From positions 1 to 22,338 of the forward strand of contig CALFNC010000227.1 in the NCBI GenBank assembly GCA_937902605.1: 22,338 nucleotides of DNA, written 5' to 3'. Within the stretch, counting starts at the first letter, position 1. The number at the start of each line of letters is the position of its first letter. The DNA is from an uncultured Acidobacteriota bacterium (GTDB lineage: Bacteria; Acidobacteriota; Thermoanaerobaculia; UBA5066). The notes under the pieces were generated by a model. That model was not told where the DNA came from, made no database searches, and saw nothing but the letters and a program-made list of their open reading frames with translations. Shown one piece after another: positions 3,272 to 22,338 of this stretch. Made by a program: the position numbers and the translations under genes.

Positions 3272-3308
3272 CAGGCGGGCGCTGACTCTCAATGGGACGG
3301 CCCGCCTG
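3272..3308 (+). terminator. hairpin after uspA, possible terminator
   Basis: CAGGCGGGC (3272-3280) pairs perfectly over 9 bp with GCCCGCCTG (3300-3308). It lies 18 bases after the UspA stop codon and has no T-tract. It directly precedes repeat copy 2. Confidence 0.45.
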
Positions 3309-3320
3309 CCAGTGATCGCC

Positions 3321-3336
3321 GCGTTTACGCGATCGC
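3321..3336 (+). promoter_or_regulatory. inverted-repeat operator candidate, copy 2
   Basis: GCGTT, six bases, then ATCGC: the counterpart of 576-591, with one mismatch in the right arm. It is exactly 44 bases upstream of the CRP-like box, as in copy 1. Confidence 0.42.
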
Positions 3337-3364
3337 TCTACACAAACCGGACGACCGTTCAATC

Positions 3365-3393
3365 TGTGACGCTCGTCACCGAAACGCTTGACA
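3365..3393 (+). promoter_or_regulatory. CRP-like box and -35 element, copy 2
   Basis: TGTGA-CGCTCG-TCACC (3365-3380) matches nine of the ten half-site positions of the CRP consensus. TTGACA follows at 3388-3393, and GATCCT at 3411-3416 is the -10 candidate after a 17-bp spacer. The box centre would lie near -50 relative to the predicted start, which is neither a classical class I nor a class II position. It could serve activation through a partner, or repression. Confidence 0.48.
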
Positions 3394-3445
3394 TTCGCTT
3401 CGGGCTCGGAGATCCTACCGCGCAACCGAAAAGTCCATGGGTGGT

Positions 3446-3640
3446 CCTTCCAGGAAGGAATCCCGGAGAAGGAAGTAGTCCCATTGCACAGGAGCCGAGG
3501 CGCGGTCCGGTATTCGCTCATCGCCATCTCTATCTCTCGGCGGTGGTGGAGAGGGTGCGGGGCGGTTCTGAGCGGGGGACGCGGCGGCCGAGGACGGGAA
3601 GTCGGTATTCAGGTTGCAGGACGCGGCGAATGGGTCGCCG
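3446..3640 (+). ncRNA. structured 5' leader candidate, copy 2
   Basis: CCTTC/GAAGG (3446-3450 with 3454-3458) has loop CAG in place of TGG in copy 1. ATCGCC/GGCGGT forms a stem around a longer pyrimidine-rich loop near 3519-3544. CGGCGA/TCGCCG (3624-3629 with 3635-3640) has loop ATGGG in place of ACGGG. Loop changes with conserved stems support an RNA rather than a protein constraint, but two sequences alone are weak evidence. Confidence 0.4.
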
Positions 3641-3697
3641 ATGTCGATATCAATATCAATGATTCGGGGATAAGGGGATAAGGAGGAGAAAAGAACC

Positions 3698-4819
3698 GTG
3701 AGGACAAAACAAGCTCTGACGACGTGGGTTTCGAGGTGGGTTGCCGCTGCCGCCGTGCTAGTCGGCATGATGGCGCCCGGCGCGGCACAGGCCCAGGCGA
3801 TCATCAAGGTGAACGATGACGTGAACGTCAAGTTCGGCTTGCTCCTGCAAGGCTGGGCGGACTGGAACCAGGACACGTTATCCAGCGGATACGCCGAGAA
3901 TCTATTCCTGCGGCGTGCCCGGTTCATCATGGGCGGGCAGGTTGCGAAGAACGTGACGTTCTTCTTCGAGACCGACAACCCGAACCTGGGGAAGGTGCCG
4001 AAGGCGCTCGGGACGGGGTTCATCGTCCAGGACGCGTATTTGGAGTGGAAGATCGCCGACGCGTTCGCGCTCGATGGCGGCCTGATCCTGATCCCGATGA
4101 GCCGGAACGGCCTGCAGAGCGCGGCGTCGCAGCTGTCGATCGACTACGGAACCTTCACGTTCCTCAACAGCGCGCCGACGCAGTCTTCGGTCGGGCGTGA
4201 CACGGGGTTCCAGGCGAAAGGCTACCTCGTCGACAAGCACCTGGAGTATCGGATCGGCGCCTTCCAGGGATTCCGGAATCCGGCGGTCGCGAATGTCGAT
4301 GGTGGCTCGCGGAACTCGTTCCGGTCGGCCGGGCGGCTGCAGTACAACTTTCTCGACACGGAGGTCGGCCCCTTCTACACCGGGACGTACCTCGGAAAGA
4401 AGAAGATCCTCTCGATTGGCGCCGGCTATGACACCCAGTCGTACTACAACGCCTACTCGGGCGACCTCTTCTTCGACCTTCCGGTCGGAACGGCGGGCGG
4501 TGTCACGGGGCAGTTCGACTGGGTCCACTGGGATGGCGAGAAGACCTTCACGGCGCTCGCCCAGCAGAGCGACTGGTTCGGAGAGCTTGGCTTCTTCCTG
4601 GCCGGCGCGAAGACGCAGCCATACGTCAAGTATGAGAAGCAGAGCTTCGCCCTCAGCGACAGCACGAAGGGCCAGAAGAGGTTCCAGGTCGGCTTCAACT
4701 ACTACGTCTCCGGCCAAAACTTGAAGGTCACCGGCGCGTTCACGAAGATCATGCCGAACAACCCGGCGACCTCCTCGACGAACGAATTCACCGTCCAGCT
4801 CCAGCTCTTCTACTTCTAG
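3698..4819 (+). CDS. outer-membrane porin, phosphate-selective porin O/P-like
   Basis: A 373-residue protein with a Sec signal peptide: basic start MRTKQ, a hydrophobic core, and probable cleavage after AQAQA near residue 33. The mature part is rich in alternating aromatic/polar beta strands, such as GLLLQGWADWNQ, FLRRARFIMGGQV and the repeated Y-x-F strands. It ends in phenylalanine (LQLFYF), as expected for recognition by the beta-barrel assembly machine. Overall pattern and length fit the Porin_O_P family, which form channels for anions in the outer membrane. The GTG at 3698 is preceded by AAGGAGGAG. Control is expected from repeat copy 2, the same element that precedes the MHS permease, so the outer- and inner-membrane steps of one uptake route may be co-regulated. 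Phosphate itself is not implied by this context. Confidence 0.85.
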   Translation: MRTKQALTTWVSRWVAAAAVLVGMMAPGAAQAQAIIKVNDDVNVKFGLLLQGWADWNQDTLSSGYAENLFLRRARFIMGGQVAKNVTFFFETDNPNLGKVPKALGTGFIVQDAYLEWKIADAFALDGGLILIPMSRNGLQSAASQLSIDYGTFTFLNSAPTQSSVGRDTGFQAKGYLVDKHLEYRIGAFQGFRNPAVANVDGGSRNSFRSAGRLQYNFLDTEVGPFYTGTYLGKKKILSIGAGYDTQSYYNAYSGDLFFDLPVGTAGGVTGQFDWVHWDGEKTFTALAQQSDWFGELGFFLAGAKTQPYVKYEKQSFALSDSTKGQKRFQVGFNYYVSGQNLKVTGAFTKIMPNNPATSSTNEFTVQLQLFYF

Positions 4820-5200: not shown

Positions 5201-5213
5201 AGGAGGTGTGATC

Positions 5214-6437
5214 GTGGAGGAAAAGGTACCCAATCGGTGGACAATGGTTGTCGCGGCGCTGGTCATGCAGATCTGCCTCGGCGTCCTTTACGCCTATAGC
5301 GTCTTTAGGGGCCCCTTGACGAAGGAGCTTGGCTACACCGTCAAGCAAACCGGCTACCCGCTCATGGCCTCGTTCCTCTTCTTCGCCGTCGGCATGATCT
5401 TCGCCGGCCGCTGGCAGGACAAGGCGGGGCCGCGGACCGTCGGGCTGGTGGGGGGCGTGCTCCTCGCTATCGGGTGCGTGATCGCGGGCGTCATGTACAA
5501 GGATCTCGCCGGCCTGATCATCGGCTACGGGGTCATCGGCGGGCTGGGTGTCGGGTTCGCATACGTGACCCCGATCGCGACCTGCATCAAGTGGTTCCCG
5601 GACAAACGAGGGACGATCACCGGGCTCGCGGTCTTCGGCTTCGGCGCAGGGACCCTGGTCTTCGGGCCTCTAATCGGCAAGCTGATCGCGAGCAACGGGA
5701 TCGCGACCACGTTCTTCATCATCGCGGCCATCATGCTCGTCTTCGTCTGCGGCGCGGCGGCCACCTTCAAGGTCCCTCCGGCCGGATACAAGCCGGCTGG
5801 CTGGAATCCGCCGGCCCCGGCGCCGGGCGCGCAGATCGTCAAGACGAACTACCTTCCGAACGAGATCATCCAGACCAGCTCGTTCTGGGTTCTCTGGTTC
5901 ATCTTCTTCATCGGCGCGGCGGCCGGCCTCATGATCATCGGTCAGGCCGTGCCGATCGGCGTCGAGGTGGCCAAGCTCGACAAGGCGACTGCTGCCGCCG
6001 GGCTGGGCACCATGGCCCTGCTGAACGGCATCGGACGGCTGTTCTGGGGCAGTGTCTCGGACAAGCTCGGAAGGACGAAGACCATCATCGCCTGCTTCGT
6101 CATGTACATCCTGGCCTTCGTCTTCGTCCTCCCGAACAGCAATACCTTCATGCTCTGGCTCGTCGGCGTCTGCGCGGTCGGTTTCGCCTACGGCGGATAC
6201 CTCGCTCTAATGCCCTCGCTCACGGCCGACTACTTCGGCACGAAGTCCCTCGGAGCGAACTACGGCTATCTCTTCAGCGCGTGGGGCATCGCCGGCGTGT
6301 GCGGACCCTTCATGATCGACTTCATCAAGACGTCCACAGGCGCGTTCACGAACGCCATGTACGTCACGGCCGGCGCCTGCGTGGTCGGAATCATCCTGGC
6401 GCTCATCGCCAAACCTCCGAAGGCAGAGGCCGCGTAG
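5214..6437 (+). CDS. OFA-family MFS permease (oxalate:formate antiporter-like)
   Basis: A 407-residue inner-membrane protein with twelve predicted helices. OFA traits are the start WTMVVAALVMQICLG with YAYSVF in TM1, the loop motif GRWQDKAGPR, GLGVGFAYVTPI in TM4, SDKLGRTKT in the second half and GFAYGGYLALMPSLTADYFG. Relatives exchange or import small carboxylates such as oxalate/formate or monocarboxylates. Arg275 in GIGRLFWG probably equals OxlT Arg272. The position I would match to OxlT Lys355 lies in YLFSAWGIAG (around Trp357) and shows no Lys, so oxalate should not be assumed. The GTG at 5214 is preferred over the GTG at 5208, because 5208 lies inside the AGGAGGTG ribosome binding site. 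It sits 203 bases upstream of the CoA-transferase operon, so it may import the operon's substrate. Confidence 0.88.
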   Translation: MEEKVPNRWTMVVAALVMQICLGVLYAYSVFRGPLTKELGYTVKQTGYPLMASFLFFAVGMIFAGRWQDKAGPRTVGLVGGVLLAIGCVIAGVMYKDLAGLIIGYGVIGGLGVGFAYVTPIATCIKWFPDKRGTITGLAVFGFGAGTLVFGPLIGKLIASNGIATTFFIIAAIMLVFVCGAAATFKVPPAGYKPAGWNPPAPAPGAQIVKTNYLPNEIIQTSSFWVLWFIFFIGAAAGLMIIGQAVPIGVEVAKLDKATAAAGLGTMALLNGIGRLFWGSVSDKLGRTKTIIACFVMYILAFVFVLPNSNTFMLWLVGVCAVGFAYGGYLALMPSLTADYFGTKSLGANYGYLFSAWGIAGVCGPFMIDFIKTSTGAFTNAMYVTAGACVVGIILALIAKPPKAEAA

Positions 6438-8075: not shown

Positions 8076-9419
8076 ATGGCCACACCCGATTTCGAAACCT
8101 ACTGTCAGGGGCTCTTCGACCACAAGACGGCTTCCGGAAAGCCGGAGGTCTTGAAGGGTTATCGCGTTCTCTCCTGCACGCAGTACATCCTCGGTCCTTC
8201 CTGCGCGGCCTACCTGGCCGAGCTGGGAGCCGAGGTCATCAAGATCGAGACGCCGCGGCGCGGCGAGCCGATGCGTCACACGACCCCGTTCAACGAGCCC
8301 CTTCTCTTCCCGCTCTCCCGCTGGGTGCCGGAGGCGGGGACGGGCCTCGGCTTCTTCGGGGCCAACACCAACGAGGAGTTCATCACCCTCGACTTTCACC
8401 GGCCGGAGGCGAGGCAAGCCATGCTGGAGCTGGCGGCCAAGACGGACGTCTTCGTCCAGAACTTCCGGCCCGGAACTTTCGACCGGTGGGGGATGGGATA
8501 TCAGCATCTCTCCAAGGTCAACCCCCGCATCATCTACCAGTGGCTCGGCGGATTCGGCGGCTGGGGCCCCGGGCGCGTCCGGGCCTCCTACGACATCCTG
8601 GGCCAGGCCATGGGCGGAGCGTTCGGGATCACGGGTGAAGCCGCGGACCGGGGCGGGACGCCGTCCAAGCACACCATCTGGCTGGCCGACTACTGGGGCG
8701 GCATGATGGCCGCGGTCACGGTCCTCGCGGCGCTCTACTACCGGGACACGGTCTCGGGCAAGGGAACCTTCATCGAATACTCGCAGGTGCACGGCGTCCA
8801 GAGAATGCTCGAATACTCGTTGCCTCTCTATGGCCGCTATGGCGTCCGGCGCGAGCGCTGGGGCAACTGGGACACGGAGCTCTGCCCCCACGGGATCATC
8901 CAGTGCGGCAAGTCGTCCTATCCCGACTCCAAGAATCCGCAGGAGGCGGAGGTCGGCTACATCCTCATCACGGCTCACACGGACGAGGACTTCAAGAAGC
9001 TGACCGACGTGATCGGGCGGAAAGATCTCGCCACGACCTACGCCAAGCACGACGACCGGGTGAAGGCGGAGAACCAGGGAGTCCTTTACGAGGCGCTCGA
9101 AGCCTGGGCCAAGGACAAGACCAAGGAAGACGTGGCCACCATTCTCGACAAGGCCGGCCTCAACAACCAGCCGGTCTGGAACGCGAAGGAAGTCGCCGAG
9201 AATCCCCATTGGAAGATGCGCGGCGCCGTCCAGTGGTACGACGATCCGATCTACGGCGACCTTCACCACCAGGGTCCGGCCTTCATGATGTCCGACACGC
9301 CCCCGCGCCTGAAGTGGGCGCTGAAGCCGGTCGGCGCCGACAACGAGCGGGTCTACGGCCGCCTCCTCGGGTGGTCGAAGGCGAAACTGGCCAAGATGGA
9401 AGAGGCGGAGGTAATCTGA
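8076..9419 (+). CDS. family III CoA-transferase, second of a tandem pair
   Basis: A 447-residue paralogue of the preceding gene. It shows the same order of family blocks: YRVLSCTQYILGPSCAAYLAELGAEVIKIE, EEFITLDFHRPEAR, DVFVQNFRPGTFDRWGMGY, and WLADYWGG with the probable catalytic Asp205, then YRDTVSGKGTFIE. Both paralogues therefore keep the nucleophile. The ATG at 8076 is selected by GAGGAGG just upstream. The two proteins also share the RWGNWD-type segment and the late NPHWKMRG / DPHFKYRG block, so they are probably an old duplication forming a heteromer, as in BbsE/BbsF. The last codons contain the GGAGGT site for the next gene, which starts one base after the stop, so translation is likely coupled. 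Confidence 0.9.
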   Translation: MATPDFETYCQGLFDHKTASGKPEVLKGYRVLSCTQYILGPSCAAYLAELGAEVIKIETPRRGEPMRHTTPFNEPLLFPLSRWVPEAGTGLGFFGANTNEEFITLDFHRPEARQAMLELAAKTDVFVQNFRPGTFDRWGMGYQHLSKVNPRIIYQWLGGFGGWGPGRVRASYDILGQAMGGAFGITGEAADRGGTPSKHTIWLADYWGGMMAAVTVLAALYYRDTVSGKGTFIEYSQVHGVQRMLEYSLPLYGRYGVRRERWGNWDTELCPHGIIQCGKSSYPDSKNPQEAEVGYILITAHTDEDFKKLTDVIGRKDLATTYAKHDDRVKAENQGVLYEALEAWAKDKTKEDVATILDKAGLNNQPVWNAKEVAENPHWKMRGAVQWYDDPIYGDLHHQGPAFMMSDTPPRLKWALKPVGADNERVYGRLLGWSKAKLAKMEEAEVI

Positions 9420-10403: not shown

Positions 10404-10781
10404 ATGAAGGTCAAGTTCTACTATTCCAGCAAGGACAAGCCGGGGCAGCAGTACCCGTGTGACACCGCGGCGTGCGTCGAGAAGGTCAAGGCGCTGAAGC
10501 TCGTCGGTGTTGATGCCGAGGCGATCGACATGGCCGGTGTGGAGGATGCCTTCCGTCCCTACCACTCGGCCCTGACGGGCCCGCCGGCGACGGTTCGAGC
10601 GGTCTTCGGCATGAAGGGAGCGCTGGAGGCCGACTTCGGCCGCGCGACGCCCGCCGTCCTCATTTTCGGCGATCCGAAGGACCGCTACCCGACGGATGCC
10701 TACCCGCGCCAGGATCAGGGTCGCGGGGGTCTCGTCGGGTGTCAGAAGGCCCTCGAAGACCTGGCGAAACACGAAGGCTAG
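10404..10781 (+). CDS. hypothetical protein of the CoA-transferase operon
   Basis: 125 residues; the ATG follows AGAGGAG. It opens with a beta strand (MKVKFYYSS), then has Cys19 and Cys24 (five apart), an alpha/beta pattern (VEKVKALKLVGVDAEAIDM) and a strand PAVLIFGDP. The order is reminiscent of a thioredoxin-like or Rossmann-type small fold, without a CxxC. I do not recognise the family. Its stop lies 10 bases before the ligase start, and the AGGAGG for the ligase overlaps its stop codon, so the two are likely translated together. Confidence 0.7.
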   Translation: MKVKFYYSSKDKPGQQYPCDTAACVEKVKALKLVGVDAEAIDMAGVEDAFRPYHSALTGPPATVRAVFGMKGALEADFGRATPAVLIFGDPKDRYPTDAYPRQDQGRGGLVGCQKALEDLAKHEG

Positions 10782-10791
10782 GAGGCCTCCG

Positions 10792-12456
10792 TTGAGTACG
10801 ATTCCCCCGGAGTACCTGCCCCCGAAAGAATTCCAGTCCCAGCGGATCTACAACCTGAAGGAGTTCGCCAGCTACCCGGATCCGCTGAACAGTACCGAGG
10901 AGCTTCTCGACAAGCAGGTGGCGGCTGGGAGGGGCGACAGCCGCGCCATCCTTTTCGGCGACAAGGTCATCACCTACAAGCAGCTCCTGGGAGCGGCCTG
11001 CAAGATCGGCAACGCCCTCAAGAAGCTCGGCGTCGGGGAGACGGACCGCGTCATGCTCCGCTCGCCCAATGTTCCGCCGGCCCTCTTCACGAATTTCGGT
11101 GTGCTGAGGCTCGGGGCCGTGATGGTCCCGACCTCGCACATGCTCTCTCCGAACGAGATCGCCCACATCGCCAACAACGCGGAGGCGAAGGTGATCGTCG
11201 TGGCGGCAGCGTTCGTGGAGGGAGTCGTCAAGGCGCGACCGAACCTCAAGACGGTGAAGCATGTCATCGTCTTCGGAGGCCAGCCAGAGGAGCTGAAGGC
11301 TCAGGGCCTCCTCTCCTACGAGGAGCTGACCGCGAACGAGGCCCCGACCCTCGATCCGGTCCGTCGCGCGCGCACGGCGGTTTCCGTGCTCCTCTACACC
11401 TCGGGCACGACCGGAATGCCGAAGGGAACCGCCCACTACATGGAGGAAGCCCTGATCGTTCCGGATACCATGGGCAAATACGGCTGGAACGTCCAGCCCG
11501 ACGACGTCCTCTGCGGCCCCGCTCCAATCTCGTTGGCGGGCGGCTACTCGACCGTGGCGACGATCCCCTTCCGATTCGGCGCCGCAATTTCTCTCATCCC
11601 CAGGTTCACGCCTGACGGGCTCTTCGAGCTGATCCAGAACCACAAGGTGACCATCCTGAGCGCTCTGCCCACGGCCTACCGGAAGATGCTTGAGGTGGAG
11701 GGCGCGGAGAAGAAGTACGACCTTTCGAGCCTCCGGGTCCTGACGGGTGGCGGCGAATCGCTGACGGCCAAGACCTACCAAGACTGGAAGGCCAAGTTCA
11801 ACCAGGAGATCTACGAGGGTCTCGGGACGACGGAGATGATGTACGTCTTCGTCTCCAGCGTCGTCACGCGAAAGGTGAAGCCCGGAGCGATCGGCACCGC
11901 GGTCCCCGGATACGAGATCAAGGTCCTCACGGAGGAGGGGAAGGTCGCTGGGCCCGGAGAGCTAGGCCGGCTCTACGCACGCGGGCCGACGGGAACCCTC
12001 TACTGGCGTCCGTACGAGGACGGCGGCAGCATGCTCGAGAAGCAAAAATCGGTCATCCGCGAAGGGTGGGTCCTGGTCGGCGACTTCTGCACGGTGGACG
12101 ACGAAGGGTACCTGAGCTTCGTGTCGCGCCAGGAGGATCTGATCAAGAGCTCGGGCTACCGGATCGGACCTGAGGAGGTCGAGGACGGCCTTCTCAAACA
12201 TCCGGCCGTGGCCGACGCCGGTGTGATCGGGGTGCCCGACCCCGTCCGCGGTCAGAACGTCAAGGCCTTCGTCATCCTCAAGCCCGGCCAAACCCCGAGC
12301 GAGGAGCTCAAGAAGGCCATTATCGAAAGCTGCCGCGAGCACATCGCGATCTACAAGCTGCCGCGGCAGATCGAGTTCGTCACCGAGCTCCCGCGCACCC
12401 TTCAGGGCAAGCTCCTGCGGCGGATCCTGCGGGATAAGGAGGTCGCGGCGAAGTAG
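10792..12456 (+). CDS. AMP-forming acyl-CoA ligase, benzoate-CoA ligase-like
   Basis: A 554-residue member of the ANL adenylating superfamily. It would convert a carboxylic acid, ATP and CoA to acyl-CoA, AMP and pyrophosphate in the cytosol. Signatures: TSGTTGMPKG (residues 203-212, phosphate-binding loop), GTTEMM (motif A5), GDFCTVDDEGYLSF and RQEDLIKSSGYRI (hinge region), and PRTLQGKLLRR with the adenylation Lys540. The overall style (YNLKEF, PLNSTEELLD at the start; GPAPISLAGGYS) resembles benzoate/aminobenzoate-CoA ligases. TTG at 10792 is chosen because AGGAGG lies 6 bases upstream and the longer reading frame would overlap the previous gene. Last gene of the operon. Ligase and transferases together suggest one acid primed with ATP and a second activated by CoA exchange. 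Confidence 0.88.
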   Translation: MSTIPPEYLPPKEFQSQRIYNLKEFASYPDPLNSTEELLDKQVAAGRGDSRAILFGDKVITYKQLLGAACKIGNALKKLGVGETDRVMLRSPNVPPALFTNFGVLRLGAVMVPTSHMLSPNEIAHIANNAEAKVIVVAAAFVEGVVKARPNLKTVKHVIVFGGQPEELKAQGLLSYEELTANEAPTLDPVRRARTAVSVLLYTSGTTGMPKGTAHYMEEALIVPDTMGKYGWNVQPDDVLCGPAPISLAGGYSTVATIPFRFGAAISLIPRFTPDGLFELIQNHKVTILSALPTAYRKMLEVEGAEKKYDLSSLRVLTGGGESLTAKTYQDWKAKFNQEIYEGLGTTEMMYVFVSSVVTRKVKPGAIGTAVPGYEIKVLTEEGKVAGPGELGRLYARGPTGTLYWRPYEDGGSMLEKQKSVIREGWVLVGDFCTVDDEGYLSFVSRQEDLIKSSGYRIGPEEVEDGLLKHPAVADAGVIGVPDPVRGQNVKAFVILKPGQTPSEELKKAIIESCREHIAIYKLPRQIEFVTELPRTLQGKLLRRILRDKEVAAK

Positions 12457-12596: not shown

Positions 12597-14612
12597 CTAG
12601 GAGAGGACGACCCGTGAGTCGACCACCGTCAGCCCCTTCTCGTGGACGATGACCGGATTGAGGTCCATCTCGTCGATCTCCGGATGATCGGCCACGAGAT
12701 CGGAGACCTGGACGAGGAGCTCCCGAAGCGCCGCCACGTCCGAGGGTCTCCTTCCACGAACCCCCTCGAGGAGCCTTGCCCCCCGGGTCTCCTCGATCAT
12801 CTCCGCCGCGTCCTTCGCAGCGAAAGGGACGACCCGGAACGAGACGTCCTTCAGGACCTCGACCAGGATCCCGCCGAGGCCGAACATCACGGCATGGCCG
12901 AACTGGAGATCGCGGGTCACCCCGATGATGACCTCCTGTCCCGGCGCGGCCATCGCGCTCACGAGGACGCCGCCCGGCCGCGCCCCGAGCCTTTGGCCGA
13001 TGCCGAGGACGTCGCGGAACGCTTTCCGGACCCCCATTTCGTCGGCCACGTTCAGGAAAACTCCGCCGACGTCGCTCTTGTGCGTCACGTCCAGGGAGTT
13101 CATCTTCACCGCGACTGGAAAGCCGATCTCCCGGGCGGCGGACGCCGCCTCGTCCTCGGTTCCAGCGTGCCGGGAAGGGACGACGCAGATCCCGCCGCGT
13201 TCGACGAACCCCATCGAGTCGAACGGGGAAAGCGGTTTTCCGGTTCCGGAGGGTGTCTCGGTCGTCGGGGGCTCCTCCTTCGGACGGGGAAATGCCCCTC
13301 GCGTGAACCGGAGGTGACAGGACAACGCCTTGACGGCGCGCTCCGGCGTCGGAAATACGGCGATCTTCTTCTCGTGAAGGAGGAGCCGCTCCGCCCGTTC
13401 GACGTCGGCGCCGCCGAGGTACGCGACCAGTTCCGGCCGGCCCGGTTCCATGATCTTCGCGGCGCCCGGGATGGGGTCCCCGAAGATCGTCATGACGACG
13501 TCGTAGTGGTCCCTTGAAACGGCGATGACCTGGCGGAAGCGCTCGGCGTCGCCATCGCCCGTCAGATCGAGCGGGTTCCCGACGATGCAATGGGGGGGGA
13601 GGATCTCCCGGAGCCGCGGCACCAGAGAGCTGGGAAGGGGGGTGACGCGGAGCCCGTTCTCCTCCGCCACGTCCGTCGCGATGATCGCCGATCCTCCGGA
13701 GCTCGTGACGATCAGCATCCGCGGCCCGGCGGGGGGAGGAACGTAGGCCAGGGCCTTCGAAAAGTCGTAGAGCTCCTCGAGGGAGGAGGCCCGGTGAATG
13801 CCGAACTGCCGGAAGACGGCGTCGTAGATCTCGTCCTTCCCGGCGAGCGACCGGGTATGCGACTCCGCGGCCTTGCGCCCCTGAACGGTCCGCCCCGCCT
13901 TGAAGACGACGATCGGCTTCGCGCACTTCTTGACGGAGGCCAGGAATTTCCGGGCGTCCTTCACCCCCTCGATGTAGAGCGTGATGACCTTCGTGTTGGG
14001 ATCGGAGGCGAAGAAATCGATCAGATCGGCCTCGTCCACGTCGACCCTGTTTCCCATGCTGACGAACGCCGAGAAGCCGAGCTTCTCCTCGGCGGCCCAG
14101 TCGATGAGCGCCGCCCCGACCGTTCCGCTCTGTGAGGCGATGGCCATTCCGCCCCTCTGTGTGATGAGGGGCCAGGAGGCGCAGAGGCCGTGGTAGGGGT
14201 AGTTCACCCCCTGGCAGTTCGGGCCGACGACGCGGATGCCGCACCGGGCCGCGTTCGCTTTGAGCTCCTCCTGGAGCCGGGTCCCGTCCGCCCCCGATTC
14301 GGCGAACCCGCCGGTGATGACGATCGCCGCCCTCACCCCGCGTTCGCCCAGCTGGAGGATCGTTCCGGGGACCGAAGCCGCGGGGATGATGACGACGGCG
14401 AGGTCGGTGCCTGCTGGGATCTCCTCGACCGATTTGATCGAGGGGACCCCCAGGATCACCTCCCCCTTGGGGTTGACCGGGATGACCTGGCCGCCGAAGC
14501 CGGCGTCGAGGATGTTCCGGAGGATTTGAAATCCCATCTTCTCGGGCTTTGCCGAGGCGCCGACGACGGCGAGCCGATTGGGCCGAAAGAGCGGCCGGAG
14601 GGAATCACTCAT
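12597..14612 (-). CDS. NDP-forming acyl-CoA synthetase (acetate-CoA ligase type), fused alpha-beta
   Basis: 671 residues. The family converts acyl-CoA, phosphate and NDP to acid, CoA and NTP, or the reverse. Domain order: CoA-binding Rossmann domain (RLAVVGASAKPEKMGF, residues about 13-135), two succinyl-CoA-ligase-like domains (MAIASQSGTVGAAL; GNRVDVDEADLIDFFASD), then a linker near 435-455 and an ATP-grasp domain (residues about 455-671; FPVAVKMNS, THKSDVGGV, the end EMDLNPVIVH). The phospho-acceptor His252 lies in ESHTRSLAG, so the enzyme should be active. ATG at 14612 has GGAG upstream. The gene follows the Crp-family gene by 87 bases in the same direction. A CoA-binding domain of this type recurs in the Pat-like gene at the window end, but there without the catalytic His. 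Confidence 0.92.
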   Translation of the reverse strand: MSDSLRPLFRPNRLAVVGASAKPEKMGFQILRNILDAGFGGQVIPVNPKGEVILGVPSIKSVEEIPAGTDLAVVIIPAASVPGTILQLGERGVRAAIVITGGFAESGADGTRLQEELKANAARCGIRVVGPNCQGVNYPYHGLCASWPLITQRGGMAIASQSGTVGAALIDWAAEEKLGFSAFVSMGNRVDVDEADLIDFFASDPNTKVITLYIEGVKDARKFLASVKKCAKPIVVFKAGRTVQGRKAAESHTRSLAGKDEIYDAVFRQFGIHRASSLEELYDFSKALAYVPPPAGPRMLIVTSSGGSAIIATDVAEENGLRVTPLPSSLVPRLREILPPHCIVGNPLDLTGDGDAERFRQVIAVSRDHYDVVMTIFGDPIPGAAKIMEPGRPELVAYLGGADVERAERLLLHEKKIAVFPTPERAVKALSCHLRFTRGAFPRPKEEPPTTETPSGTGKPLSPFDSMGFVERGGICVVPSRHAGTEDEAASAAREIGFPVAVKMNSLDVTHKSDVGGVFLNVADEMGVRKAFRDVLGIGQRLGARPGGVLVSAMAAPGQEVIIGVTRDLQFGHAVMFGLGGILVEVLKDVSFRVVPFAAKDAAEMIEETRGARLLEGVRGRRPSDVAALRELLVQVSDLVADHPEIDEMDLNPVIVHEKGLTVVDSRVVLS

Positions 14613-14699: not shown

Positions 14700-15401
14700 C
14701 TACTGGCGGGCAGGCCCCGGGGACGCCACCGCCTCCGGATACAGGAACCTCATGAGCAGAGGCTTGTTCACGATGAAATGGGGGCCCTCCCGCTTCAGCA
14801 GGCCAAATCGCTTGAACTTGTTGATCTGCGTGCTGACCGTCTCGCGGGTGGTCCCGATCAGCTTCGCCAGGTCCTCATGGGTCAGGCGGAGCGGGATGAC
14901 GGTTCCCTTCGGCGTCTCGACCCCGTGTTCGGCACCGAGCTGCAGGAGGACGCGTCCCAGCCTGTGATACGACCAGGTGTGGCCGAATCCGGCCAATCCC
15001 TGCTCCACCGCCACGAGCCGTCGCGACAGGAGGCGGATGAAGTTGTGGGCCACGGGAGGAAACCTGGTCAAGATCTCCTGGAAGCTCCTTCGCGGTATGA
15101 CGGTGACCCGGACGTCGGTTGCCGCGATGGCTTTGAAGGCCCGCTTCTCCTCCGAAAAGAGAAGCTCGCCGAAGATCTGGTCGGGCTTCAGGATATGCAG
15201 GATCGTCTCGGCGCCCTTGTCCGAGACCGAAACAAGCTCCACCAACCCCTCCGCCACGATGAGGACCGAGTCACTGGCATCGCCCTCCGAGAAGATCGTC
15301 GCCCCAAGGGAGTACCGCCGCTCCGTGCACAAGCGGGCGATCTCCTTGACGTCCGCGTCAGAAATATCCCGGAAGAGCTCGACGGCCGTCGGTCTGGGCA
15401 C
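14700..15401 (-). CDS. Crp/Fnr-family transcription regulator
   Basis: 233 residues. The N-terminal cyclic-nucleotide-binding-type beta roll covers about residues 10-115, with FSEGD (37-41) and the cassette FGELLF...RA (Gly78-Glu79, Arg87-Ala88), which keeps the key Glu and Arg of cNMP binders. A dimerisation helix follows, then a winged HTH (residues about 170-215) with recognition helix GTTRETVSTQINKF. Arg186 and Glu187 match the DNA-reading pair of E. coli CRP; the CRP Arg185 position is Thr here. There are no Cys clusters like those of FNR. GTG at 15401 starts the protein with a normal family N-terminus. Likely target sites are the TGTGA-N6-TCA boxes at 620 and 3365, and possibly the adjacent synthetase gene; both are inference. 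Confidence 0.9.
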   Translation of the reverse strand: MPRPTAVELFRDISDADVKEIARLCTERRYSLGATIFSEGDASDSVLIVAEGLVELVSVSDKGAETILHILKPDQIFGELLFSEEKRAFKAIAATDVRVTVIPRRSFQEILTRFPPVAHNFIRLLSRRLVAVEQGLAGFGHTWSYHRLGRVLLQLGAEHGVETPKGTVIPLRLTHEDLAKLIGTTRETVSTQINKFKRFGLLKREGPHFIVNKPLLMRFLYPEAVASPGPARQ

Positions 15402-15521: not shown

Positions 15522-15740
15522 TCAGGCGGCCCGGTGAAGAGAAGTGACCTCTCGGGGAAGGAAATCGCGTAGCTCCGCCTCCGGAGGAGACGATTCCGTC
15601 CAGAAGAACCGCTTTCCGGCCTTCTCCATCTCGGAGAGGTATCCCAGCAGGATGCCTCCGAACGAAAGAGCGAGCAGGACGAGAGCGCCGAAGAAGGCTC
15701 CGGACCCGAGAACCAAGTAATCAGTGAGGATTGCTTCCAT
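15522..15740 (-). CDS. small single-pass membrane protein, unknown function
   Basis: 72 residues. One hydrophobic helix (about residues 8-36: YLVLGSGAFFGALVLLALSF and following) is preceded by a short acidic N-terminus and followed by a charged tail (EKAGKRFFW, then an acidic segment). ATG at 15740 is chosen because GGGGGTGAG lies 4 bases upstream; an in-frame GTG nine bases earlier falls inside that site. No family recognised. It is transcribed away from the GNAT-HDAC gene with about 100 bases between them, so a shared regulatory region is likely. Gene size and location suggest an accessory membrane protein, but no role can be assigned. Confidence 0.7.
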   Translation of the reverse strand: MEAILTDYLVLGSGAFFGALVLLALSFGGILLGYLSEMEKAGKRFFWTESSPPEAELRDFLPREVTSLHRAA

Positions 15741-15843: not shown

Positions 15844-17700
15844 GTGATCAGAGCCGAGAGTCGCCCGGACGCGAAGCCCTTCCTCTCCCCTCGGCCGAGA
15901 GAGGAGATCGTCCGGGATCTGGAGAAGCTGATCGAGGAGAGGAAGCTCTTCGGTGCCGAGCTCAACCCGACGGTTATCAAGAAGGCCGGCAAGGGAACCC
16001 GGTTCCTGATCAGCAAGGTTCCCTCGAGGCCGAAGCTGCTCAAACTCTGGGCGAACCTCTTCCGGAACGCGACCTCGCCGAGCTCCCTCCTGGAAGCGCT
16101 GTCCGCCAGGACGCATGAGTTCCAGCACCGGGAGAACATCCTTCTGTTCGGCAAGGACCGGATCATCTACGACACGCAGATCTTCCAGGGCGATGAGGGG
16201 ATCGGGGAGCTGACCCTCACGTTCGGCTCCCTCGCCGACCCGACGGCCGGCGTCCTCGCGTACCTGAAGGGCGCGAGGCTCCGGGTCGTCTACATCGAGC
16301 ACATCCGCGTGACGGCGCAGAAATCGGGCTACGCGTCGACGCTCTTCCGCCATTACGAGCAGCTCTTCCGCGACCTTGGCTTCAACCAGTTCCGGTTGAG
16401 CGCCGCCCTCTCCGTCGGCCGGTACTACTGGGCCCAGGAGGGATTCGACTTCTCGGACAGGTCGGAGATCGGCCGGAGGAAGGCGGAGCTGCGTGCGGTC
16501 GTCAGGAAGAGGAGCCTTCCTGTCCGGGAGGTCGAGATCGGACGTCTGAACCACGCCTACGATTTCGCCCGTTTCAGGCGAGACGTGAGGATTCCCGCCT
16601 ACCGGAACGCCGAAGGGTTCTATTCCTTGACGCGCCACGAGCCTTTCAACGAGGAGGTCTCTCTTCCGCTCGGGAAGGCGTTCCTTCTCTCCTCGGCGAA
16701 GTGGGACGGGTACAAAACCATCTACACGAATACCCCGCGGAGGACGGGCTTCGTGACCTCCAGAGAGTACCTCTCGCATCGTACGCGGGCAGGGCACGTC
16801 GAGAGCCCCAAGCGGCTCCGCACTCTCGTGAAGGCGGTCAGGAAGGACGATCTTCGAAGCAGCCTCGTCTTCCTGGAGCCGTACGTCCCGGACCTCGCGT
16901 TCCTCGAGGGGATCCACCGGGCGGAGTATCTGGCGAGATTCCGCGAGGCCGTCCGGAAGGGCAAGAAGGTCTTCTCCACGACGGACTGCTCGATCTGCCC
17001 GGCCAGCTTCGACGTCGCGCTCCTGGCGGCGGGCGGCGTGATGGCGGGCGTGGACGCCGTCATGAACGGGAGGGTCGACAACGTGTTCTGCGCCGTCCGG
17101 CCCCCCGGACACCACGCGGGACGGGATTCGACGACGGGCTTCTGCTTCATCAACAACGTGGCGGTCGGCGCCGTCTACGCGAGGACAGTCTACGGTGTGG
17201 AGCGGATCTTCATCCTGGACTGGGACGTCCATCACGGGAACGGCACGCAGGAGATCTTCGAGGAGGATCCGCTGACCTACTATTGCAGCATCCACGAGCA
17301 TCCCACGTTCTGCTTCCCGGGCACCGGCCGGCGGATGGAGCACGGGACCGGCGCGGGCGTCGGGTTCACCCTGAACCTGCCGCTCAAGCCGGGAGCGAAG
17401 GATCAGGAGATGATCGACACCTTCGAGAGGGATGTCGTTCCCGCAATCGACGGGTTCCGGCCAGGCCTGATCATGGTCTCCGCGGGGTTCGACGCGCACC
17501 GCAGGGACATGATCGCCGACCTCGAGGTCACGGAACGCTCCTTTGCCACCATGACCCGGAGAATCTGCGAGCTGGCGGACCGGCACTGCGGGGGCAGGAT
17601 CGTATCGGTCCTCGAGGGAGGCTACGACGGTCCTTCCCTCTCCTCGTCGGTCGTGGCTCATCTGAAGACGCTTCAGGGAAGGAGTCAGGAATGTTCGTAG
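15844..17700 (+). CDS. GNAT-like acetyltransferase fused to AcuC-type histone deacetylase family protein
   Basis: 618 residues from the GTG chosen here. The N-terminal half carries a GNAT-like unit (about residues 130-210): a strand IEHIRV, the acetyl-CoA loop Q-K-S-G-Y-A (159-164), then a helix and GFxxFRL strand ending WAQEGFDF. The C-terminal part (about 300-615) is a complete HDAC/arginase-fold deacetylase: HH423-424 in PGHHAG, zinc ligands Asp461 and His463 (WDVHHGNG) and Asp550 (GFDAH), and Tyr594 in GGY. Relatives such as AcuC remove acetyl groups from lysines of acetyl-CoA synthetase. The reading frame extends to 15724 but would overlap the start of the divergent gene; no good ribosome site marks 15844, so the start is uncertain. 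The stop overlaps the next gene by 10 bases, implying coupling with the AcuB-like protein. The GNAT catalytic state is unproven. Confidence 0.87.
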   Translation: MIRAESRPDAKPFLSPRPREEIVRDLEKLIEERKLFGAELNPTVIKKAGKGTRFLISKVPSRPKLLKLWANLFRNATSPSSLLEALSARTHEFQHRENILLFGKDRIIYDTQIFQGDEGIGELTLTFGSLADPTAGVLAYLKGARLRVVYIEHIRVTAQKSGYASTLFRHYEQLFRDLGFNQFRLSAALSVGRYYWAQEGFDFSDRSEIGRRKAELRAVVRKRSLPVREVEIGRLNHAYDFARFRRDVRIPAYRNAEGFYSLTRHEPFNEEVSLPLGKAFLLSSAKWDGYKTIYTNTPRRTGFVTSREYLSHRTRAGHVESPKRLRTLVKAVRKDDLRSSLVFLEPYVPDLAFLEGIHRAEYLARFREAVRKGKKVFSTTDCSICPASFDVALLAAGGVMAGVDAVMNGRVDNVFCAVRPPGHHAGRDSTTGFCFINNVAVGAVYARTVYGVERIFILDWDVHHGNGTQEIFEEDPLTYYCSIHEHPTFCFPGTGRRMEHGTGAGVGFTLNLPLKPGAKDQEMIDTFERDVVPAIDGFRPGLIMVSAGFDAHRRDMIADLEVTERSFATMTRRICELADRHCGGRIVSVLEGGYDGPSLSSSVVAHLKTLQGRSQECS

Positions 17701-18335
17701 GAAAGAGGATGACGCGAAACGTCATCACCGTCTCCCGGGGAGACACGCTGAAGTTCGCGAGCCACGTCATGCAGGAGCACCGGATCCATCAGCTGCCGGT
17801 CGTGGAAGGCGGAGAGCTGATCGGTTTCGTATCGGGCACCGACATTCGTAACTCGACGCTCGAGAAGACGACGGTCTCGGAGGGCGGCGAGATCGTAGTG
17901 AAGAACAAGACCGTCGGAGAGATCATGACGGTCGACGTGATCACGGTGAGCCCGTCCGATACCGTCGAAGACGCTCTCCTCATCATCCACCGGAGACGCA
18001 TCGGCGCCTTGCCAGTCGTGGAGGGGAAGAGGCTGCTGGGGATCATCACGAAAGCGGACGTGCTGGCGGCGTTCTGCGACACCCTGAGAATCGAGGAGGT
18101 CGGCGTCAGGATCGAGGTGCTCCTCCCACGCGACGTCGGCTCCTTCACCTCTCTCATTCAGCTCGTGCGCGCGCTCGGGGAGATCGACATCGAGATCCGG
18201 AGCCTGATCCTGACTCCCTCGCCGAACGGTTTCGTGGTCTTCGTCAGGATCTCGACGATCGACGTGGCGGCCGTGAAAAGGGAGCTGAGAGACAGGGGCT
18301 TCTCGGTGGCCGAGCTTCGGGATTTCCTCGAGTAG
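17691..18335 (+). CDS. acuB: AcuB-like protein, two CBS domains plus ACT-like domain
   Basis: 214 residues, about the length of Bacillus AcuB. The first CBS motif covers about residues 7-60 (MTRNVITVSRGDTL... HRIHQLPVVEGGELIGFVSGTDI), and the second about 80-135 (MTVDVITVSPSDTVEDAL... RRIGALPVVEGKRLLGIITKADVL). A C-terminal ACT-like unit covers about 140-214 (VRIEVLLPRDVGSFTSLIQLVRALGEIDIEI). CBS pairs bind adenine nucleotides and ACT domains bind small ligands, so it is a probable energy or metabolite sensor. ATG at 17691 follows GGAAGGAG and lies inside the end of the deacetylase gene. In Bacillus acuA, acuB and acuC form one operon; here the A and C activities seem to be in one polypeptide. 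Confidence 0.82.
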   Translation: MFVGKRMTRNVITVSRGDTLKFASHVMQEHRIHQLPVVEGGELIGFVSGTDIRNSTLEKTTVSEGGEIVVKNKTVGEIMTVDVITVSPSDTVEDALLIIHRRRIGALPVVEGKRLLGIITKADVLAAFCDTLRIEEVGVRIEVLLPRDVGSFTSLIQLVRALGEIDIEIRSLILTPSPNGFVVFVRISTIDVAAVKRELRDRGFSVAELRDFLE

Positions 18336-20757: not shown

Positions 20758-20834
20758 GGCAGGGATGATAGCGAACCACGCCGGCTCAGCCAGCCGTTGG
20801 AATGCTAAGCTGAACCCGGGGGAGGAACGGCGCG

Positions 20835-22338
20835 ATTTCCGCTTCCATTCGAACTCTCATCCTGCCGCCGACCTACCAGGACTCCGCGGAATCCGGCCGT
20901 CTGATTCTGCGCGACGGGTCGACCGCCGTCGTCCGCCTCTCGGAGCCCGGGGATCGCGAGGCGCTGCGCGAGTTCTTCCGCCGTCTCTCGCCGGAGTCGC
21001 GGCGCCGCCGCTTCTTCTCGATCGCAGAGCCGGCGGAGAAGCTCCTGGAGCGGCAATGCGATTCGTCCAATCCCCGGACACAGCTGACGCTGATCGTGAG
21101 CCGGGTCGCGGACGGCCTCTCCCGGATCATCGCGACCGGTTCGTATGTCGCCCGCGACGAGACCACCGCCGAGGTCGCGTTCGCGGTCGACGACGAGCTC
21201 CAAGGAAAGGGCCTGGGCGGTCTTCTCCTCGAGCGGCTGGCCCTCCTGGCGGCGCGCCACGGCTTCGTCCGCTTCTGGGCCCTGACCCTCCTCGGAAACC
21301 AGCTGATGCTGGAGACCTTCCGCCACTCTGGCTTTTCGATTCACTCGCGCATCGAGGATGAATGCGTCGAGATCGACTTCTCCGTCGCTCCGAGCGAGGA
21401 CAGCGTCAGCCACTCGGAGATGCGGGACCGGGTCTTCACGACCGCCTCGCTCCATCCCTTCTTCCGGCCGCAGTCGGTCGCGGTGATCGGTGCGTCCCGC
21501 GACCCGACTAGCATCGGCTACCGGATCCTCGACTCGCTCATCCGGGGCGGCTTCCGCGGCTCCATCCACGCGGTGAATCCGAACGCCACGCGCGTCCACT
21601 ACCTACCGGCCTATCCCTCGGCCAGGCAGATTCCGGAAGGGGTCGATCTCGCCGTGGTGGCCGTCCCGCGCGAGGCGGTGTGGGAGGTCGTGGACGACTG
21701 CGCGGCCCGGGGAGTCCGGGCGCTCGTCGTCATCTCGGCTGGCTTCGCGGACGCGGGCGCCGAGGGGTGTGCCCAGCAGGAGAGGCTTCTCGAGAAGGTG
21801 CGCGGCCTCGGGATGCGGATGGTCGGACCCAATTCGATGGGCCTTCTGAATGCCGACGAGGGGGTCCAGCTCAACGCGTCGCTCTCTCCCGCCCTGCCGC
21901 CGCCCGGGAGCGTCGCCATGTCGTCGCAGAGCGGCGCGCTCGGTCTGGCCATGCTCGCCCTGGCCAGGCAGCGCCACCTCGGGGTCTCGACCTTCGTCAG
22001 CGTCGGGAACCGGGCCGACATCTCCGGCAACGACCTTCTCCAGTACTGGCAAGGCGACGAGGCGACGCGAGTCATCCTCCTCTACCTGGAGTCCTTCGGG
22101 AACCCGCGGCGCTTCGCGCGGCTCGCCAGGGCCGTGAGCCGCACCAAGCCGATCGTGGTCGTAAAGGCGGGGTGCCGGGCGGCGGGGCGGGACGCGGAAG
22201 GGCCGGGCCTGTCGGACCTCGTGACGGGCGAAGCTCCGGTCGACGCGCTCTTCCGCCAGACGGGCGTCATCCGGGCCGAGACACTGGACGAGATGTTCGA
22301 CCTGGCCGCGGCGCTCGACCGCCAGCCGCTGCCGGCGG
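20835..22338 (+). CDS. Pat-like GNAT acetyltransferase fused to acyl-CoA synthetase-like domains (3' truncated)
   Basis: 501 residues are present before the window ends. Residues about 24-195 form a GNAT domain with the acetyl-CoA motif Q-G-K-G-L-G (123-128) and WALTLLGNQLMLETFRHSGF. From about 206 follows an NDP-forming synthetase-like part: FFRPQSVAVIGASRDPTSIGYRI, MVGPNSMGLLN, VAMSSQSGALGLA, GNRADISGNDLLQY. The segment that should hold the phospho-His (near residue 457-460) reads GPGLSDLVTGEAPVDALF, with no His, so the ligase part is probably regulatory, as in Salmonella Pat. The upstream frame closes at TGA (20811). No ATG, GTG or TTG lies before the GNAT domain; ATT at 20835, 9 bases after GGAGG, is the best start. 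CTG at 20862 is the alternative. Confidence 0.82.
   Translation, partial: MSASIRTLILPPTYQDSAESGRLILRDGSTAVVRLSEPGDREALREFFRRLSPESRRRRFFSIAEPAEKLLERQCDSSNPRTQLTLIVSRVADGLSRIIATGSYVARDETTAEVAFAVDDELQGKGLGGLLLERLALLAARHGFVRFWALTLLGNQLMLETFRHSGFSIHSRIEDECVEIDFSVAPSEDSVSHSEMRDRVFTTASLHPFFRPQSVAVIGASRDPTSIGYRILDSLIRGGFRGSIHAVNPNATRVHYLPAYPSARQIPEGVDLAVVAVPREAVWEVVDDCAARGVRALVVISAGFADAGAEGCAQQERLLEKVRGLGMRMVGPNSMGLLNADEGVQLNASLSPALPPPGSVAMSSQSGALGLAMLALARQRHLGVSTFVSVGNRADISGNDLLQYWQGDEATRVILLYLESFGNPRRFARLARAVSRTKPIVVVKAGCRAAGRDAEGPGLSDLVTGEAPVDALFRQTGVIRAETLDEMFDLAAALDRQPLPA

Follow-up and report, generated by a model that had tools for sequence, protein, structure and literature searches.

The window analyzed here, the whole stretch of 22,338 nucleotides on one contig of an uncultured Acidobacteriota bacterium, raises the question of whether a single polypeptide may both add and remove acetyl groups, opposing activities that normally belong to separate proteins and whose balance is hard to control in experiments. 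The gene in question lies at 15844..17700 (+) and encodes, from a probable GTG start, a protein of 618 aa in which an N-terminal GNAT-like half is followed by a class II-type zinc deacetylase. The frame ends at the stop codon at 17698-17700, and the open reading frame list extends it to an earlier GTG at 15724 (658 aa); since relatives begin, in the alignment, in a manner resembling GTG 15844, we placed the probable start at that position. Judging from its sequence, one part of the chain looks as though it may be able to add acetyl groups, and the other should remove them.

A search with the N-terminal residues 1-330 found 180 relatives, of which 120 were listed, including the window's own protein. 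The Pfam domain PF00850 was present in the same protein in 116 of these 120, and the fusion is therefore not a matter of chance. An assembly artefact was ruled out because this fusion recurs across many contigs. Both halves are under purifying selection: dN/dS (Nei-Gojobori, computed with our own script on five pairs per half) ranges over 0.28-0.35 in the N-terminal half, and over 0.15-0.27 in the deacetylase. The preliminary description had placed two opposing units in one chain, and the single open frame, which joins a GNAT-like half to a PF00850 half and recurs in relatives, bears this out.

What supports the N-terminal half as GNAT-like is its predicted fold together with a motif; its sequence matches did not reach significance. 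Its putative core spans residues ~93-205 (16120..16458, +), and the comparison of a predicted structure with GNAT folds that had been proposed as a check recovered a GNAT core, with strand 4-helix 3-strand 5-helix 4 and an acyl-CoA loop. The Q-x-x-G-x-A motif noticed earlier is confirmed as Q159-K-S-G-Y-A164, which agrees with motif A of the GNAT superfamily, (Q/R)-x-x-G-x-(G/A); among 36 aligned fused proteins Q159 is found in 32 and is replaced by R in three, while G162, Y163 and A164 are invariant (36/36). The core also contains E199-G-F201, a putative catalytic acid on strand 4 (E/D152, kept in 35/36 fused proteins) and Y194-Y195-W196, all three invariant in 150/150 sequences. Pfam gave no significant match within the first 300 residues, NCBIfam gave no GNAT match for the 36 N-half sequences, and profile matches to GNAT families were all sub-threshold. 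Alignment of the half with four GNATs by hhalign gave a probability below 1%, in a run whose controls failed, and against PDB sequences its profile matched, up to E 10, only a lipocalin (E 0.41). The AcuA structure 2Q04 was not among the 50 fold matches listed, which excludes nothing. From fold and motif together, we infer that this half may be capable of GNAT catalysis.

The deacetylase half (residues ~301-618; 16744..17697, +) matches PF00850 (Hist_deacetyl) over residues 318-610 with an E value of 8e-93. H423-H424, the zinc ligands D461, H463 and D550, and Y594 are invariant in 36/36 aligned fused proteins, in agreement with the earlier claim of an HDAC with all catalytic and zinc residues. 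The half thus has the HDAC fold, His-His pair, Asp-His-Asp zinc site and Tyr of class II / HdaH-type enzymes. Its best sequence matches among those listed were HdaH (210 bits) and HDAC6 domain 2 (195 bits), with 121 bits for the acetylpolyamine amidohydrolase 3q9b, and HDAC1/2/8 were not among the best 60 of 137 matches to the fused domain. We classify it by sequence as a class II / HdaH-type deacetylase that is predicted to be intact. Compared with the bacterial HdaH / class II HDACs (cluster 1 in PMC11532494), the fusion adds the 300-residue GNAT-like half and an AcuB partner gene.

That partner gene (17691..18335, +; 214 aa) has its ATG at 17691 and overlaps the fusion stop at 17698-17700 by 10 bases, exactly as first described. 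Its product had been called CBS-CBS-ACT. Pfam finds the two CBS stretches, but ACT is not matched even at E 1; the third domain rests instead on an alignment of residues 4-206 with residues 4-204 of Geobacillus stearothermophilus AcuB (PDB 9s4w, E 5e-26), which runs the full length of the protein and spans the ACT region missed by Pfam. With this arrangement and full-length similarity to AcuB structures, the protein is an AcuB homologue. Its coupling to the fusion proved tight: AcuB lies directly 3' of the fusion in 19 of 20 contexts in which the 3' end is present (the window and 18 of 19 loci), the sole exception being L156 (G239), and its start overlaps the fusion stop in 12 of 19. The AcuB gene is cut by the contig end in L155 and interrupted in L147.

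Two acyl-CoA synthetases encoded nearby are candidate targets. The ADP/NDP-forming enzyme (12597..14612, -; CoA_binding_2, Succ_CoA_lig and ATP-grasp_5) is the divergent neighbor and keeps S-H-T, which we take to be where the catalytic His is expected. The AMP-forming enzyme (10780..12456, +) ends in PRTLQGKLLRR, which resembles the A10 Gly-Lys motif at which AcsA is acetylated. Between the ADP-forming synthetase and the fusion is a CRP/FNR-type regulator (14700..15401, -), for which tblastn (E 1e-5) gave no match in L106, L107 and L109. The divergent upstream ADP-forming synthetase is found in all four fusion-bearing genomes examined from the window's family, and such a synthetase is convergent to the fusion in one of 16 contexts of the other class. 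The idea that the neighborhood fixes the synthetase target was rejected, as a synthetase neighbor was observed only in the window's family and L150. Elsewhere in the window, a Pat-type protein (20814-22337, +), truncated at the contig end, carries a GNAT domain (PF00583, E 5e-07) with CoA_binding_2 and Succ_CoA_lig behind it; A-E-G-P-G stands in place of the A-E-S-H-T of the nearby synthetase, so the synthetase part of the Pat-type protein may lack activity. An MFS transporter (5208-6437, +) scores 416.5 against a cut-off of 320 for the NCBIfam 'L-lactate MFS transporter', and by eye open reading frames with a similar start sequence are seen near the fusion in L149, L151, L154 and L156. Two class III CoA-transferases (PF02515; 6635-8056 and about 8076-9419, both +) look like members of an organic-acid activation cluster.

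The distribution of the fusion is patchy. Among 148 genomes in the window's class, 4 had a match to the N-terminal half, and a sample of its phylum gave 3 of 396 (3 of 199 in another sample). The phylum to which G217 belongs gave 5 of 198, one a fragment; in a sample from that of the Nitrospirae record G219, a search run without a known positive match gave none of 245. Within the class of G217, one match spanned both halves in 15 of 26 genomes, and in one further genome it extended over two contigs. Source names of the relatives listed include Thermoanaerobaculia, Deferrimicrobiaceae and single others. A search with the N-terminal half alone found 146 proteins, and PF00850 was missing from 115 of the 120 listed, under a length limit that favors short proteins and with some marked partial. 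The 112 counted as stand-alone include one fused form (P0242) in error; 98 of the 112 have the end motif in its strict (G-K-A...P-W-x-G-Y-K) or a looser version, and in 78 of the 98 the chain stops within 18 residues of it. Because this is approximately where fused proteins pass into the deacetylase, the half seems to form a unit of its own. Several stand-alone forms come from long contigs, among them P0287 (1.34 Mb) and P0304 (0.95 Mb); a search of 396 genomes of the window's phylum for their gene context found none.

In a midpoint-rooted tree of the N-terminal half, with labels assigned by text motif (P0242 mislabeled), stand-alone forms branched from among the fused ones at two or more points, which may be consistent either with splitting or with fusion as the direction of change. 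The deacetylase tree, from which L009 was left out because of a stop codon, recovered the fused forms as monophyletic (18/18, support 0.999) and likewise the stand-alone paralogues with AcuB (13/13, support 1.0). The sister relation between these groups has a support of 0.105, so that duplication of a deacetylase-AcuB pair followed by fusion to the N-terminal half is only a guess. AcuB is directly behind the stand-alone class II-type deacetylase in all 13 loci from the class of G217 (L129-L133, L135-L142), with no GNAT-like half within the ~4 kb stretch around them. Outside that class, the link was not seen in the other 79 loci of the genome collection (L003-L082 without L010; many short), save for a weak AcuB match in L007. 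By eye, the next open reading frame resembles a zinc alcohol dehydrogenase in L131, L133, L135 and L010, of eight loci inspected.

We consider the chances slightly better than even that a GNAT writer and a class II-type eraser work in one chain, probably on synthetase lysines, with AcuB docking and shifting the balance by nucleotide. The writer would be the N-terminal GNAT-type acyltransferase and the eraser the class II-type zinc lysine deacetylase, and both would probably act on lysines of neighboring acyl-CoA synthetases, of which the window encodes one that is ADP-forming and one that is AMP-forming. For Bacillus and Geobacillus proteins, two reports describe binding of adenine nucleotide or Ap4A and inhibition of the deacetylase by AcuB (PMC13121692, PMC13039410); AMP-bound AcuB inhibits AcuC (PMC13121692), and through its ACT domain AcuB contacts AcuC around the active site (PMC13039410). 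If this carries over to a class II enzyme, the CBS pair would bind adenine nucleotides and AcuB would dock on the deacetylase, throttling the eraser half. With the eraser throttled, the writer half would dominate when AMP or Ap4A rises, and acyl-CoA synthesis would stop; low energy or stress would move the balance toward acetylated, inactive synthetase.

The N-terminal half might instead be a GNAT-derived sensor that binds acetyl-CoA without transferring the acetyl group and gates the deacetylase allosterically, writing being left to, for example, the Pat-type protein ~3 kb downstream. The presence of that protein and the distance of the N-half sequence from known GNATs fit such a sensor, but we think it unlikely given the retention of the putative catalytic acid and of Y194, Y195 and W196. 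In addition, stand-alone copies without a deacetylase appear to exist, which argues that the half is useful apart from gating. It is quite improbable that both halves work on a polyamine or other amine, in a reversible N-acetylation cycle of a small molecule within one chain. The gatekeeper residue speaks for this, as Ile occupies that position in 17 of 18 fused deacetylases (Val in one) and in 34 of 36 in a wider alignment, and the PIS motif of bacterial polyamine deacetylases places Ile there (PMC11532494). Nevertheless, the HDAC10-type Glu gatekeeper is absent from the 18 compared, HdaH and HDAC6 domain 2 outscore 3q9b, and the AcuB linkage, along with the synthetase linkage in one family, suggests a protein target.

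We regard a true rearrangement of acuABC, with AcuA fused to AcuC as the organism's AcuC orthologue, as highly improbable. As in Bacillus, acetyltransferase-like, AcuB and deacetylase functions are linked, and the window's family has a divergent acyl-CoA synthetase, just as acsA in Bacilli lies upstream of the acu operon and is transcribed in the opposite direction (PMC13121692); AcuB and deacetylase genes overlap in both, by four bases in B. subtilis (PMC13039410). However, writer and eraser are in one chain here, the divergent synthetase is ADP-forming, and no AcuA match was found for the N-terminal half among the 50 fold rows listed or the PDB sequences at E 10. The deacetylase is of another class: class I is where AcuC falls (PMC11532494), whereas the best listed matches of the fused domain are HdaH and HDAC6 domain 2. 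Moreover, the window's genome has a separate acuB-acuC pair on another contig (G000:C396, L110; 5286-6802, -), beside which is a MarR-type regulator (3307-3837), so the fusion is not the organism's only such system. G204 also has a separate pair on another contig, and in G098 and G055 such a pair, acuB2 and acuC, comes immediately after the fusion and acuB1. In a comparison of the C396 acuC with the sequences of structures, HDAC1/2/8 filled most of the match list, with three two-domain HDAC6 chains at the top by summed score. The fused deacetylase was therefore discarded as an AcuC orthologue. Of the original interpretation, the GNAT-like half, the predicted intact deacetylase and the AcuB coupling are supported; the rearranged acuABC is not.

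Returning to a writer and eraser in one chain, the parts of the system are of known kinds and their union is new. In Pat/PatZ, too, a GNAT is built into a larger enzyme, but there it is joined to an acyl-CoA synthetase-like domain and not to a deacetylase, and a Pat-like protein is encoded separately in the window. AceK, GlnE and GlnD combine opposing modifications within a single chain under the control of metabolites, as proposed for the fusion; their chemistry is that of phosphate, AMP and UMP, on other proteins, and not of acetyl. We tentatively propose, at somewhat less than even odds, an acetyl-lysine writer and eraser of GlnE/AceK-like design, in which AcuB, through AMP/ATP or Ap4A, would set acetylation against deacetylation of an acyl-CoA synthetase, possibly an ADP-forming one. 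We know of no earlier polypeptide that both writes and erases acetyl-lysine, nor of an ADP-forming acyl-CoA synthetase controlled by such an acetylation switch. A title and abstract search of literature outside most subscription journals and all preprints found no such fusion, nor is one mentioned in the accessible portions of PMC11532494, PMC13325672, PMC8603916, PMC13121692 and PMC13039410. With writer and eraser naturally fused and a nucleotide sensor dedicated to them, two proteins would be enough to test directly how the opposing activities escape futile cycling. If the proposal is true, control by AcuB would reach beyond class I-like AcuC to class II-like enzymes; each of the 13 stand-alone paralogues from the class of G217 is likewise followed by AcuB.
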